Below, piece by piece: positions 12,679 to 61,930 of a stretch of 64,000 nt of DNA. The first letter of the stretch is position 1. Each line of letters starts with the position of its first letter. The DNA is from Gaetbulibacter sp. 4G1 (GTDB lineage Bacteria > Bacteroidota > Bacteroidia > Flavobacteriales > Flavobacteriaceae), in assembly GCF_002741945.1 (NCBI RefSeq), contig NZ_MDVN01000020.1, forward strand, positions 310,001 to 374,000, written 5' to 3'. The notes beneath the pieces are model-generated. The model saw only the letters and a program-made list of their open reading frames with translations, was not told where the DNA came from and searched no databases. The translations under genes and the position numbers were made by a program.

Positions 12679-14621
12679 TATATCACAGTTTTTTCAATAG
12701 TAATTTTGATATGCTTTACTGGTGTATTTTCCCAACTAAGTAATGCTTTTTCTTCATAGGTTAATCTCAATAAATCGAATACCGTTTGTAATCCGTGACC
12801 ACTTACCAAGCCTTCAAGGAATTGAGGTCCATTATCTTCGACTATAATATCAAGACCTATTTCACTATTTTTAATTTTCAGAATAATCTTTCCATTTTTT
12901 TCAATTTTAGAAACACCATGCTTTACAGCATTTTCAACCAAAGGCTGAATAATAAACATAGGGATTTTTACAGATTCAACATTTTTATCTACCTCTATTG
13001 AAAATTGTAAGCGGTCTCCAAAACGTATTTGTTCAATATCTAAATAATTTTTCACCATGTCTACCTCATCGGCAACCGTGCTCATTTTTTGTCCTTTTTT
13101 ATTAATGGAGTACTTAAACAAATCGGATAATGACAATGCCATTTTTTCCGTTTTATCAGCATTTTTATGCGCTAAGCTCGCTATTGAATTTAAGGCATTG
13201 TATAAAAAATGTGGATTTATTTGCGATTGCAATAATTTGACCTCGGCTTGAGCATTTACTTCTTTTAAACGACTTAACTCTATATCTTTTTGTTTTACTA
13301 AAGAGTCTGAAAAGTTTTCAATATACAGTAACAACCCTCTACTCATAGCAAAAGTAAATACCAATAATAAAAATGGATTTAAACTAAACCAAGATGTATT
13401 ACTATTGTTTTCTAAAAAAAAGATAGCAGCGACCGGAGCAATACAAACAAAAAAAGTAAACACCGTTTTAAGAGTTATTTGCAATGTAAAACTCATGTTG
13501 TTTTTAATAATAAATTTATCAAAAAGCATTAAGAACAAAGCAATCAATAATGCAACTATTATAAAAATAACATGAATACTTATATATTGACGCCAATGTT
13601 CAAATTCATAAGGCTTAGTCATATAAGTAAATATTTTAAAAACATACAGAATGCATATCATAAAATACAAAACAGGAGCAAAATAACTATAATAAAGGTG
13701 TTTATATTTTCTTCTATAAAAAAGGCTAAAACCTAAAACAAAAAGGATTACACCTAACATAATACTTGTCCAAATAGCAAAAACCTTTGTTTTCTCCCTA
13801 TTTATATAATTGCTTGCATAATTCCAAGGATAAGTTTTATACATATAAGCTTTAAACTCCTTCTTTAAGTTAGGTGAGTATAATTTTTGTAATAAAAACT
13901 TATCCAATTCACTAAATTGACTTCCCATACTAACATTCTCTTTGTTATTCAATATCGAGTTTCTAGAATTGACTATTTTATCTTTTTTGCTTTGAAAAAA
14001 TTGAGCACATGTCATTGTCCTAATAATATCTCTTTGAATTTCTCTTTTTCTTTGTTTCAAAGTAGAACTACTAGTAAATACATATTGTAAATCAGCCTGA
14101 AAAAGCCCAGATATTCCATTTTTTTTTGAATAAAATGTAGGCTCTCCTTTGTAAATTTTAAAACCAGAAGTCATATTATAATTAAACCAATTACTGAATC
14201 CTTCATTTTCTTCAAAATGTAAATTAATTGTCACTTTTGTTAAATCTGAAAATTTATAATGATTAACATTTTTATTAGTCTCTCTATTTGAAAGAGTATC
14301 ATTAAATACTTTATCTACATAATTCTTAAGGTAACCAATTTCTTTATTTGGCAACAAAAGTCTTAGTTCTTCCATAATTATATTCATTGCTAGACTATCT
14401 TTTGATGTCGCATTGATAAGTTTATATAAAATAGGTCCATTATACTTATACACCCTTTCGCCATAACCGTTAAACACACGCTCTTTAACATACTCCCAAT
14501 TTTCATCTTTTGGTAAATCAGGATAATTATCATAATGATAGCTAGGGTTTTTACTCGTATCATCAATGATTATTATAGGAATTATTAAAGTAATAATGAT
14601 TAGTAAAATTATTTTCTTCAT
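12678..14621 (-). CDS. LytS-type sensor histidine kinase with large extracytoplasmic domain
   Basis: 647-residue membrane kinase. An N-terminal signal anchor (residues 4-20) leads into an extracytoplasmic domain up to about 278. About five helices follow (281-302, 310-332, 347-368, 384-402, 414-434), then a short coiled coil. The His_kinase motif is QSQINPHFLYNAL with the phospho-acceptor at H471. The ATPase region has the N-box-like QPLVENAVKHG and a degenerate G-box. The extracytoplasmic segment near 195-255 loosely resembles the helical core of DUF2927-type putative peptidases without the catalytic glutamate; this is tentative. It forms a cistron pair with the LytTR gene. Confidence 0.92.
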   Translation of the reverse strand: MKKIILLIIITLIIPIIIIDDTSKNPSYHYDNYPDLPKDENWEYVKERVFNGYGERVYKYNGPILYKLINATSKDSLAMNIIMEELRLLLPNKEIGYLKNYVDKVFNDTLSNRETNKNVNHYKFSDLTKVTINLHFEENEGFSNWFNYNMTSGFKIYKGEPTFYSKKNGISGLFQADLQYVFTSSSTLKQRKREIQRDIIRTMTCAQFFQSKKDKIVNSRNSILNNKENVSMGSQFSELDKFLLQKLYSPNLKKEFKAYMYKTYPWNYASNYINREKTKVFAIWTSIMLGVILFVLGFSLFYRRKYKHLYYSYFAPVLYFMICILYVFKIFTYMTKPYEFEHWRQYISIHVIFIIVALLIALFLMLFDKFIIKNNMSFTLQITLKTVFTFFVCIAPVAAIFFLENNSNTSWFSLNPFLLLVFTFAMSRGLLLYIENFSDSLVKQKDIELSRLKEVNAQAEVKLLQSQINPHFLYNALNSIASLAHKNADKTEKMALSLSDLFKYSINKKGQKMSTVADEVDMVKNYLDIEQIRFGDRLQFSIEVDKNVESVKIPMFIIQPLVENAVKHGVSKIEKNGKIILKIKNSEIGLDIIVEDNGPQFLEGLVSGHGLQTVFDLLRLTYEEKALLSWENTPVKHIKITIEKTVI

Positions 14622-58981: not shown

Positions 58982-59734
58982 TCACTTTAACTCAGTAAGC
59001 TTTATAATAGTTTCTTCTTTCCTAGATTTAGAAACGCTTACAGCACTCCCGTCCTCCATAAGTACATATCCTCCATCTTTCTTAACATAAGCTTTAGCAT
59101 AAGTACTATTTATTAAATGTGATTTGTGTGTTCTTATAAACTGGTAATCAACTAAAAGTGCTTCCCATTCTTTTAAAGTTTTAGAGACCAAAACAGTTTC
59201 ACCATTGACTAAATAAAATAATGTATAATTATTTTCTCCTTTACATCTTATTATATCATTTATTGGAACAAAATTGAGAGCCTCAGATGTTGGTAAGGCG
59301 ACTCTTTGAAACTTATTTGTGTTTTTTAAATTGTCTATCAATACTTTTATTCTTTCATTTTCACGTTTTTCTACTACAACTTTTTCCACTTTAAGAACTG
59401 CTTCCTTTAATTCTAAAATGGATACAGGTTTCATTAAATAATCCAGAGCACATGTTTTAATAGCTTGTAACATATATTGATTGTAAGCAGTAACAAAAAT
59501 GACTTCAAAATTTATTTCCTGAAGAGATTTCAACATTGAAAAACCATCTTGAACTGGCATTTCAATATCTAAAAAAACTAAATCTGGTTTATATTTATCA
59601 ATTAATAATAGACCTTCTTTCGCAGATGATGCCAATGCCAAAACACAAAGATTTGGACAATACCTATTTATCAATCCATTTAAGTTTTCAAGATTATGTA
59701 ACTCGTCATCAATTATAACACAATTTACTTTCAT
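58982..59734 (-). CDS. LytTR response regulator of the lipoprotein/LytS/LytTR operon
   Basis: 250-residue regulator. The receiver (about 1-120) has IIDDELHNLENL, the phospho-acceptor in LVFLDIEMPVQDGF and the lysine in YLMKPVSILEL. The LytTR domain (about 145-245) has IRCKGENNYTLFYLVNGETV and FIRTHKSHLINSTY. It starts 11 bases after the kinase stop and is the output of the three-gene operon. Target promoters are unknown; the neighbouring genes are candidates. Confidence 0.93.
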   Translation of the reverse strand: MKVNCVIIDDELHNLENLNGLINRYCPNLCVLALASSAKEGLLLIDKYKPDLVFLDIEMPVQDGFSMLKSLQEINFEVIFVTAYNQYMLQAIKTCALDYLMKPVSILELKEAVLKVEKVVVEKRENERIKVLIDNLKNTNKFQRVALPTSEALNFVPINDIIRCKGENNYTLFYLVNGETVLVSKTLKEWEALLVDYQFIRTHKSHLINSTYAKAYVKKDGGYVLMEDGSAVSVSKSRKEETIIKLTELK

Positions 59735-59745
59735 TCTATTTGGAT

Positions 59746-61104
59746 TTAATAAGCTATCGGCGTATAAATTTCAACAACTGTTCCTGTTAATTTTTCTTCA
59801 ATATCTGACCTATCTGAAATTTTTAATTTTGCTTTTGTATTATGGCTTTTGTTAATCAATTTAATACGATCTTCTGCTAATTTTAGACCGTAAGAGTTTC
59901 GTTTTATTGTTGATTTAACTTTTGCTAAACTAGCATTTATTCCTATACCATTATCTGTTATTATACATAATAAATACTCTTCTTCTAACTTGAATTCTAT
60001 ACTTAATTTTTTGTTATTCTCATTCTCATTTATACCATGAATGATTGCATTTTCAACAAAGGGCTGTACCAGCATTGCTGGAATTTCTACTAGATTTTCG
60101 TCTATTTTTGAGTCCACATTAATAGAATAATCAAACTTAAAACGTAGGTTTTCCAGTTCTAAATATTTTTTTATTGACTTAATTTCATCAGATAGAGTCA
60201 CAAGGCCTTTTTCAGATTTATCTAAGGTCAACCTCATAAGTTGTGAGAACTCTGTTAAATAATGATTTGCCTGATCATGACTCCCTTTATTTATAAGATT
60301 TTGAATGGCGCTCAATGCATTGAACAGGAAGTGAGGATTCATTTGAGACCGAATACTCTTTAATTGCATTTCGACAATCTTTCGTTTTAATTGTTCTTTT
60401 CTTTTAATTATTATCAACCTCCATCTAACTAACAAATAAACAAATATTGAAATAAAAATGATTAACAAGCTTATAAACCAATTAGAATATTTATGAAAAA
60501 TAGATTCTTTAAAAAACTTTTGCTTTGTTAAACCAAAAGCTTCAAGAACCATTTCTCCTTTAAACATTTTTATATTCAACAAGAAATAATTTCCGCCATT
60601 ATATAGTACCAAATTATATCCATTCTCTTTTGTTTTTGCAATATAATCACAAACAAAAACCTTTTCTTTATATATAATCATATCTTTGTTCTTAATACTA
60701 ATTATATCCTCAGAAGATAACCAGTTCCCTAACAAATCGTCAGGTATTCTTTTAATTTTGTTCTCATCTTTAATAAGTTCAAAATCTTTTCTGTTATAAT
60801 AAAAATATGCTGACTTATCACTGTTTACAAAAAATTGAAAAATGTTAGAACGAGTTTCATTAATGCATGTAATTGAGATTTTTATATTGTCTTCTGTATT
60901 GATATATTTATAATACCAAATTTCATCTTCAACAATCAGGTAATCTTTTGTAATTAACAGACATACTTGCCCTGTTTCATCATCAAACCAAGTCCCAAAG
61001 AGGTGTAGAGGTAAATCTTCTGGTAGTAAATCCTTTCCTTGTCCTGCGACAATATTTAACGATAAAAAGATTGTAATATAAAATATTATTATTCTTAAAT
61101 TCAA
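59746..61104 (-). CDS. LytS-type sensor kinase with a duplicated periplasmic domain
   Basis: 452-residue kinase. Signal segment at 3-20, an extracytoplasmic domain at about 25-205, one helix at 207-227, then the phospho-acceptor H258 in SQMNPHFLFNALS and an ATPase with QPFVENAIIHGINENE, DNGIGIN and SYGLKLAEDR. The periplasmic part has two related halves beginning LPLHLFGTWFD (residues 31-41) and IPDDLLGNWLS (120-130). The same arrangement makes up the lipoprotein encoded upstream. The start is a TTG at 61104, preceded by AAGGAT; no ATG is available before the signal segment. Confidence 0.9.
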   Translation of the reverse strand: MNLRIIIFYITIFLSLNIVAGQGKDLLPEDLPLHLFGTWFDDETGQVCLLITKDYLIVEDEIWYYKYINTEDNIKISITCINETRSNIFQFFVNSDKSAYFYYNRKDFELIKDENKIKRIPDDLLGNWLSSEDIISIKNKDMIIYKEKVFVCDYIAKTKENGYNLVLYNGGNYFLLNIKMFKGEMVLEAFGLTKQKFFKESIFHKYSNWFISLLIIFISIFVYLLVRWRLIIIKRKEQLKRKIVEMQLKSIRSQMNPHFLFNALSAIQNLINKGSHDQANHYLTEFSQLMRLTLDKSEKGLVTLSDEIKSIKKYLELENLRFKFDYSINVDSKIDENLVEIPAMLVQPFVENAIIHGINENENNKKLSIEFKLEEEYLLCIITDNGIGINASLAKVKSTIKRNSYGLKLAEDRIKLINKSHNTKAKLKISDRSDIEEKLTGTVVEIYTPIAY

Positions 61105-61125
61105 ATCCTTTTATATGGAGTTTAA

Positions 61126-61809
61126 TTAATTTTTATCTTTTGTAAAATACCCCAAAGAAATGCCCTTAGAATTAAAAAAATAGTTTTCACCTTTTTTACT
61201 AGCCAAACTCACTTCATACATACCATCCTTATATAAAATAAAAAACCAATAAGAATCGTCAGGATTCCTCGACCCTCCAACATGATCAATTGGCAAACCT
61301 TTAAAATTATCCTCTTCTGGTCCAAATTTACAAAACCCATCAGTTACTTTTAATTTTATATCTGCATTAGACCAATTAGACCAACTTCCTTTTAAAAATG
61401 CTGGTACTTTATCTTTCACATTTCCTTTAACAAAAGTTAGTAGTCTATCAGTACGTATTGTTAAACTGTCATTACTTAACCTTAGCACCTCTAGTTTATC
61501 AGTCACTTTTCTATTAGTAAATTTTATTTGGTAATTAGAGTTATCTAATATTTTTACATCTTCATAATACCATACTTGGATAGCATTTACTATATAATCT
61601 GGGGTAATAATCATCATTAGTGTACCATATTTATCATACCAGTTTCCAAAAATTTCTTTCGGTAAATCCTTTGCCATTAATAATTCTTGATTATTTAAGT
61701 GGTTTGTAGCTATGGCCAATTTGGAATTACTCTTAACTATTTGTTTTGTTTGACAACTAACAGAAAAACAAAATGCTAAAATTAAAAATGATAATGTTGT
61801 AGTTTTCAT
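61126..61809 (-). CDS. Lipoprotein sharing the sensor kinase's periplasmic domain
   Basis: 227-residue lipoprotein (signal LSFLILAFCFSVSC, acceptor C19). The mature part contains DLPKEIFGNWYDKYGTLMM, IITPDYIVNAIQVWYYED and a second half starting VPAFLKGSWSN, collinear with residues 30-200 of the kinase encoded 21 bases downstream. It therefore looks like a free copy of the sensory domain fixed in the membrane leaflet. It could bind the same ligand or interact with the kinase. First gene of the operon, with a good -7 box upstream. Confidence 0.82.
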   Translation of the reverse strand: MKTTTLSFLILAFCFSVSCQTKQIVKSNSKLAIATNHLNNQELLMAKDLPKEIFGNWYDKYGTLMMIITPDYIVNAIQVWYYEDVKILDNSNYQIKFTNRKVTDKLEVLRLSNDSLTIRTDRLLTFVKGNVKDKVPAFLKGSWSNWSNADIKLKVTDGFCKFGPEEDNFKGLPIDHVGGSRNPDDSYWFFILYKDGMYEVSLASKKGENYFFNSKGISLGYFTKDKN

Positions 61810-61825
61810 AATTTTATGTTTTAAC

Positions 61826-61833
61826 CAAATATA
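61826..61833 (-). promoter_or_regulatory. Promoter of the lipoprotein/LytS/LytTR operon (-7 box)
   Basis: On the - strand this reads TATATTTG, a perfect TAnnTTTG, 16 bases before the ATG of the lipoprotein gene. Confidence 0.55.
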
Positions 61834-61930
61834 ATATCATTTCAATACTAAAATTATACTAAATGAGTATTTGGCGTAAACAAATTAGTATACAACCTAA
61901 AAAACCAAGGATTTTGCTTTTACAAATATT

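Follow-up and report, generated by a model that had tools for sequence, protein, structure and literature searches.

Operon layout, sensor homology and predicted fold

The DNA analysed here is a 64,000 bp stretch of the Gaetbulibacter sp. 4G1 genome (contig NZ_MDVN01000020.1, positions 310,001 to 374,000), hereafter called the window. Its minus strand carries three genes in the order free protein, kinase and response regulator, separated by gaps of 21 and 11 bases. All three open reading frames (ORFs) lie where an earlier note on this DNA had placed them. The first gene (61126-61809) encodes a protein of 227 amino acids, made up of a signal peptide and a predicted two-barrel module, which we call the free protein. 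The second (59746-61104) encodes a LytS-type histidine kinase of 452 amino acids, with a TTG start according to the ORF list, and the third (58982-59734) a response regulator of 250 amino acids.

Family matches support these assignments. The kinase contains a His_kinase domain (PF06580, E 4.4e-24; 60136-60369) with the PHFLFN histidine. The match to HATPase_c (59758-60072) is weak in the window (E 1.2e-4; 22.9 bits, below the cut-off of 26.4); the orthologous kinase of Flavivirga aquimarina scores 29.9 bits, above the cut-off. A hydrophobic run recognised by eye (60421-60483) is the putative transmembrane segment separating the sensor from the transmitter. The regulator combines a receiver (PF00072 Response_reg, E 2.3e-19) with a LytTR DNA-binding domain (PF04397, E 2e-14).

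The free protein and the extracytoplasmic region of the kinase are homologous across their length. BLASTP of one against the other gave an E value of 4e-10. Apart from its self-match, the free protein hit only the kinase sensor in a whole-genome search (E 3.4e-8), and a search with a 14-row profile again found just these two, so that a third copy of the module was not found in the genome. Profile-profile comparison of free protein residues 40-227 with kinase residues 20-205, a check of the kind proposed in the earlier note, resulted in an E value of 1.8e-21 across 173 columns; 20 column-shuffled controls ranged from 0.0085 to 0.62. The halves are collinear: half 1 matches half 1 (E 1.4e-16) and half 2 matches half 2 (E 3.4e-10), with crosswise values of 5.8e-5 and 0.0043. 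The proposal that the free protein duplicates the sensory domain of its kinase was thereby borne out. Profile comparison and the model described below place barrel 1 of the free protein at 61417-61680 (GNW at residues 55-57) and barrel 2 at 61135-61410 (GSW at residues 141-143); the homologous kinase sensor halves 1 and 2, delimited by profile comparison, are at 60751-61035 and 60496-60750, respectively. Within the kinase sensor half 1 matches half 2 (E 5.6e-6), and within the free protein no such match was obtained (E 0.59). It is thus the kinase profile and the model, and not the free protein's sequence, that identify the two halves as repeats.

All motifs of the two-part pattern reported earlier are present. 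The first reads DLPKEIFGNWYD in the free protein and DLPLHLFGTWFD in the kinase, the second IITPDYIV and LITKDYLI, and the third VWYY and IWYY, respectively; the kinase version of the second motif departs slightly from the IITxDYxV that had been given for both. The P-x2-3-L-x-G-x-W unit of the second half, expected some 85-90 residues further on, was recovered as VPAFLKGSW in the free protein and IPDDLLGNW in the kinase, with W-to-W spacings of 86 and 89 residues. Only six columns of the 14-row alignment are invariant throughout both sets.

The genome encodes 18 LytS-type kinases. In the stretches fetched around the other 17, no neighbouring ORF resembled the kinase's own N-terminal part, apart from two matches at chance level (25 and 30 residues, E 0.007 and 0.023; the window pair gives 1.6e-9 by the same method). 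On this basis, a general rule that LytS kinases stand beside a free copy of their sensor was rejected for this genome. The window itself has a second LytS-type kinase (13008-13247, minus strand); it has about 647 residues, including a long N-terminal part, and is directly followed by an ORF of 253 residues.

A model of the window module, built from 14 aligned sequences, consists almost entirely of strands (predicted local distance difference test score (pLDDT) 90.1, predicted template modelling score 0.85) and suggests two small lipocalin/calycin-like antiparallel beta-barrels in tandem. Curated families did not cover it: no family of Pfam, NCBIfam or PADLOC was assigned to the sensor module (the PADLOC matches fall on the regulator), and PF13648 Lipocalin_4 matched weakly (E 0.084) in only one of the 14 rows. 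Searching the PDB with the single protein sequence gave no match at E 10, the best PDB profile match was rejected (E 0.041), and Foldseek yielded no match at E 0.001 against the PDB and viral models. When Foldseek candidates were re-aligned, barrel 1 of the window model superposed on Treponema Tp0751, which we take to be lipocalin-like (Z 10.1, root-mean-square deviation (rmsd) 2.1, 81 residues). For barrel 2 the counterpart was the C-terminal barrel of 2qmi (Z 9.4, rmsd 2.3, 81 residues). Two further alignments, of barrel 1 with BT_0869, a lipocalin-like protein (Z 7.6, rmsd 2.7, 75 residues), and of the barrel pair with the D-aminopeptidase 1ei5 (Z 6.8, rmsd 5.5, 157 residues), gave scores to which the aligner's own warning applies that a Z below 8 may reflect merely a common arrangement. 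The F. aquimarina model, of poor overall quality (mean pLDDT 62) and with a poor N-terminal domain for which no fold is claimed, aligned with Tp0751 through barrel 2 (Z 10.1) and with 1ei5 across both barrels (Z 8.4, rmsd 4.9, 161 residues). The C-terminal part of 1ei5 thus resembles the module in aligning with both barrels in a row; 1ei5 is, however, an enzyme and not a sensor, and shows no sequence match to the module. GxW is a lipocalin mark, and it is found at the first strand of the barrels, with G and W invariant in half 1 (14/14 rows) and W alone in half 2. By homology, the kinase sensor is expected to take the same fold. Lipocalin-like domains generally bind small hydrophobic molecules, according to the account in PMC10269533.

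Distribution of the trio and properties of the free proteins

The trio of free protein, LytS-type kinase and LytTR regulator was found in eight loci, with the same gene order in all of them: the window, an uncultured Flaviramulus contig (L003), F. aquimarina (L004), F. jejuensis (L005) and the loci of genomes G249, G231, G811 and G384. G231 and G811 are near-identical (0.97-0.998), leaving seven effectively distinct loci. Wherever one partner was strongly matched, the genome also contained the other, supporting the conserved co-occurrence that had been anticipated.

The trio is rare and patchy. It was present in one of four genomes of the window's genus, in 3/12, 1/7 and 2/60 genomes of three further genera, and, counting strong matches only, in 4/397 genomes drawn from the family (G000, G231, G249 and G384). 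A draw from the phylum gave 1/395 genomes, and all 21 matches listed belonged to the window's family. In these large draws up to 7 or 8 candidates per genome were scored, and distant members may be missed. The first family search listed 7/397 genomes, namely the four strong ones plus G253, G292 and G025; the G253 match was discarded as a beta-galactosidase by eye and that in G292 as an unrelated-looking ORF. The second listed 11/397, the same four plus seven at E 7e-4 to 0.01. An extra weak match in G384 falls in an ORF whose start is, by eye, like that of the TlpA-like neighbours described below.

In a tree of 14 modules the free proteins separate from the kinase sensors with a support of 100/99. 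The duplication thus predates these species, and both copies were kept. All eight genomes that carry one of the two carry both, and the free twin is thus a probable component of the sensor. Mean pairwise identity (seven loci, G811 dropped) is 0.55 and 0.42 for the two halves of the free protein, 0.39 and 0.37 for those of the kinase sensor and 0.70 for the transmitter; the best-conserved stretch of the free protein is FGNWYDKxGTL.

The free proteins differ in their N-terminal parts. That of the window has a signal peptide (61753-61809) ending, by eye, in a lipobox-like SVSC, and the lipobox pattern would make Cys19 the lipidated residue. None of the residues following it (C-Q-T-K-Q-I-V-K) is acidic. 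The surface export signal of Bacteroidetes lipoproteins is described in PMC5080379 as K-(D/E)2 or a similar acidic stretch after the cysteine, and by this rule the free protein of the window should face the periplasm. The other seven have 354-384 residues and a signal-peptide-like start without a lipobox cysteine; they also carry an additional domain of about 145 residues at the N-terminus, which the window copy lacks. The earlier description of a membrane-tethered protein therefore fits the window copy, with its lipobox-like cysteine, and does not extend to the other seven loci.

In the two Flavivirga loci this extra domain is shared with TlpA-like oxidoreductases adjoining the operon (E 2e-27 and 4e-23). 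None of the six matches to the F. aquimarina TlpA-like protein in the window's genome reaches its residues 1-427. TlpA-like or similar proteins were noted at L004:2121-4289, L005:7941-10076, L055:553-2400 and in L030. The extra domain forms the start of those of L004 and L005 (tested) and of L030 (by eye), and a single GNW/GSW-like unit was seen by eye further along in all four, which suggests a wider uncurated family. The upstream region in G384 contains an ORF of 290 residues (L056:2641-3513) that has a lipoprotein-like start and a long internal repeat and adjoins genes that by eye resemble a sigma factor/anti-sigma pair.

Promoter geometry and candidate LytTR operator

Upstream of the free gene, all eight loci contain CT[CA]AT in two copies, the period being exactly 21 bp. 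In the window this direct repeat, CTMAT-N16-CTMAT (61863-61888, minus strand), is a candidate LytTR operator. A TANNTTTG-like element (TANNTTT) follows, again in 8/8 loci, at exactly 34 nt from where the second copy begins; it reads TACTTTAG in G384 and TATATTTG in the window (61826-61833, minus strand). It is a putative -7 promoter element, as we take TANNTTTG to be the flavobacterial -7 element. Across seven loci, the columns of the two boxes have identities of 0.95 and 0.81 and those of the -7 element 0.89, against 0.41-0.43 between and upstream of them.

The exact full motif was absent from 20 Markov resamplings of the DNA compared (563,526 bases, both strands counted). In a table of seven periods by nine distances, from which G231 was left out, the cell 21/34 held 10 sites and all other cells together 2. 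Seven of the ten belong to the operons and two to TlpA-like neighbours (L005 and L055); the tenth, in L083, lies inside an ORF and was taken as chance. The L055 neighbour has the exact motif and, by eye, lacks the shared N-terminal domain. One of the two sites outside the cell fits a 23/33 variant upstream of the TlpA-like gene of F. aquimarina. Because the boxes were derived from the operons, an independent test of the motif comes from the neighbours and not from the operon sites. In leave-one-out scoring the seven sites obtained 17.8 to 40.6 and the best outside site 19.3 (full matrix), so that the weakest site, that of G384, is not distinctive alone. A sigma-70 scan gave 31 sites versus 26.9 in shuffles.

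LytTR sites are described in PMC4847170 as two repeats of 9-11 nt with spacers of 11-13 nt. The 21-bp period of the eight operons, some two helical turns, fits this geometry, with a conserved core of only 5-6 nt. In G811 a copy of the motif with one mismatch is found 99 bases upstream of the next gene, and the same copy is present in G231. By eye, that G811 gene is a relative of the outer-membrane beta-barrel protein (CarboxypepD_reg, OMP_b-brl_3) encoded downstream of the regulator in L003; the two genes were noted at L003:6908-9634 and L091:299-3049. As for such a target in the window's genome, the best matches to the outer-membrane gene had 26-27% identity and no operator upstream.

A proposed co-sensing model and known systems

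From the computed homology, co-occurrence, fold class of the free-protein model and promoter geometry, we propose, with about even confidence, an autoregulated three-component system for envelope sensing, in which the free paralogue senses together with the kinase. The extracytoplasmic region of the kinase and the free protein are ancient paralogues, each probably forming two small lipocalin-like barrels in tandem. The free protein would be exported and, in the window's species, probably lipid-anchored. As a co-sensor it would most likely dock on the homologous barrels of the kinase, with or without a ligand of the presumed class, a small hydrophobic molecule, and set the activity of the kinase. 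The kinase would then phosphorylate the LytTR regulator, which is predicted to activate the operon by binding the direct repeat of 21-bp period that precedes it, the direction of control being assumed positive. In the relatives, the regulator may also activate adjacent envelope genes, namely that of the TlpA-like oxidoreductase and possibly that of the outer-membrane beta-barrel protein. A more specific form can be put forward only tentatively: the receptor would be a homotypic hetero-oligomer of the kinase's barrel pair with that of its soluble or lipid-anchored paralogue, the free subunit tuning the response and its level being set by the system itself through the LytTR operator.

Several observations weigh against co-sensing. 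Seven of the eight free proteins bear an extra domain that is not in the kinase, and may have a job of their own. Divergence is faster in the kinase sensor than in the free protein (half 1 identity 0.39 vs 0.55), which also fits a loss of ligand binding by the kinase or separate roles. The identity correlation of free half 1 with kinase half 1 (0.87) is no better than that of kinase half 1 with LytTR (0.90), so there is no specific signal of coevolution. Regarding autoregulation, the motif was defined from operons that are themselves related by descent, only the TlpA-like neighbours lying outside that set, and the scanned stretches of the window's genome yielded no convincing target other than the operon.

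The free protein could instead act as a decoy, competing for the kinase's ligand without touching the kinase, so that an autoregulated operon would end the response by negative feedback. The homologous modules in both proteins agree with such titration, and so might the expression levels: the operon opens with the free gene, which has an ATG start in 6/8 loci, versus a TTG start of the kinase in 7/8 (61102-61104 in the window; ATG only in L003; all from mechanical ORF calls), which may keep the level of the kinase lower, leaving the free protein in excess. A shared ligand would lead one to expect a shared conserved site, yet the two sets have only the six invariant columns mentioned above in common, and of the two partners the kinase sensor has diverged more. 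On balance titration appears unlikely.

We likewise doubt that the free protein is an effector of the response, such as a periplasmic carrier or a protein with a lipid- or redox-handling role, which would resemble the sensor through recognition of a shared substrate. The Flavivirga loci speak for this reading, with the extra domain common to the adjacent TlpA-like oxidoreductases and the promoter motif recurring before these neighbours, exact in L005 and as the 23/33 variant in L004; the L055 neighbour adds an exact motif with the domain, by eye, absent. Against it, no strong match to the free protein occurred without the kinase, and the window copy was kept though it lacks the extra domain. 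Chance resemblance or a recent non-functional duplication is very improbable: short motifs in AT-rich DNA can mislead and the system is rare (4/397 genomes of the family draw by strong matches), but a profile E value of 1.8e-21 against shuffled controls of at least 0.0085, the old split and conserved retention in eight loci speak against it.

The co-sensing model has partial counterparts among described systems. No system with an accessory homologous to the sensor domain of the kinase was found in the open-licence literature, and to that extent the earlier remark that no described system with such a layout was known stands; related lipocalin-like co-components and an operon of lipoprotein, kinase and regulator have been published (PMC9214523, PMC12691602, PMC6075780). 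The co-component systems VtrA/VtrC and ToxR/ToxS of enteric bacteria, as presented in PMC9214523, are encoded by adjacent genes and likewise place a fast-evolving, lipocalin-like barrel partner beside a membrane signalling protein, as part of the receptor. The output of VtrA/VtrC, however, is a membrane-bound HTH transcription factor, where here a kinase acts with a separate LytTR regulator; the VtrA sheet extends the split barrel of VtrC, giving one barrel versus two here, and the account does not describe the partners as duplicates of each other (PMC9214523). In QseE/QseG/QseF of Pseudomonadota, too, the genes of a kinase, a lipoprotein and a response regulator are clustered, and the lipoprotein QseG binds the periplasmic domain of QseE and activates it. 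The passages on this system give the QseE sensor as helical, do not describe homology of QseG to it and have QseF acting at sigma-54 promoters (PMC12691602, PMC6075780). The SaePQRS operon also combines a kinase, a regulator and an auxiliary lipoprotein, SaeP; SaeS is described as an intramembrane-sensing kinase, in an account that mentions no likeness of SaeP to it. YpdA/YpdB is a LytS/LytTR pair with an operator of two direct repeats; an accessory envelope protein is not described for it in the corresponding part of PMC4847170, and its pyruvate signal and its target are unrelated.

The analysis also adds the 21-bp repeat/34-nt promoter geometry, which is present in 8/8 operons, is found again in front of neighbouring TlpA-like genes of two relatives and provides a candidate operator for the LytTR regulator in this bacterial family. 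The module adds an uncurated, putatively lipocalin-like sensor to the LytS kinases. None of the sensor-kinase accessories met in the literature searched is described as related to its sensor. The one reported here is an old paralogue of the sensor and was not found without it, which makes homotypic co-sensing directly testable. If the hetero-oligomer exists, this would be, within the literature searched, the first case in which a free duplicate of the sensor domain gates its own two-component system.

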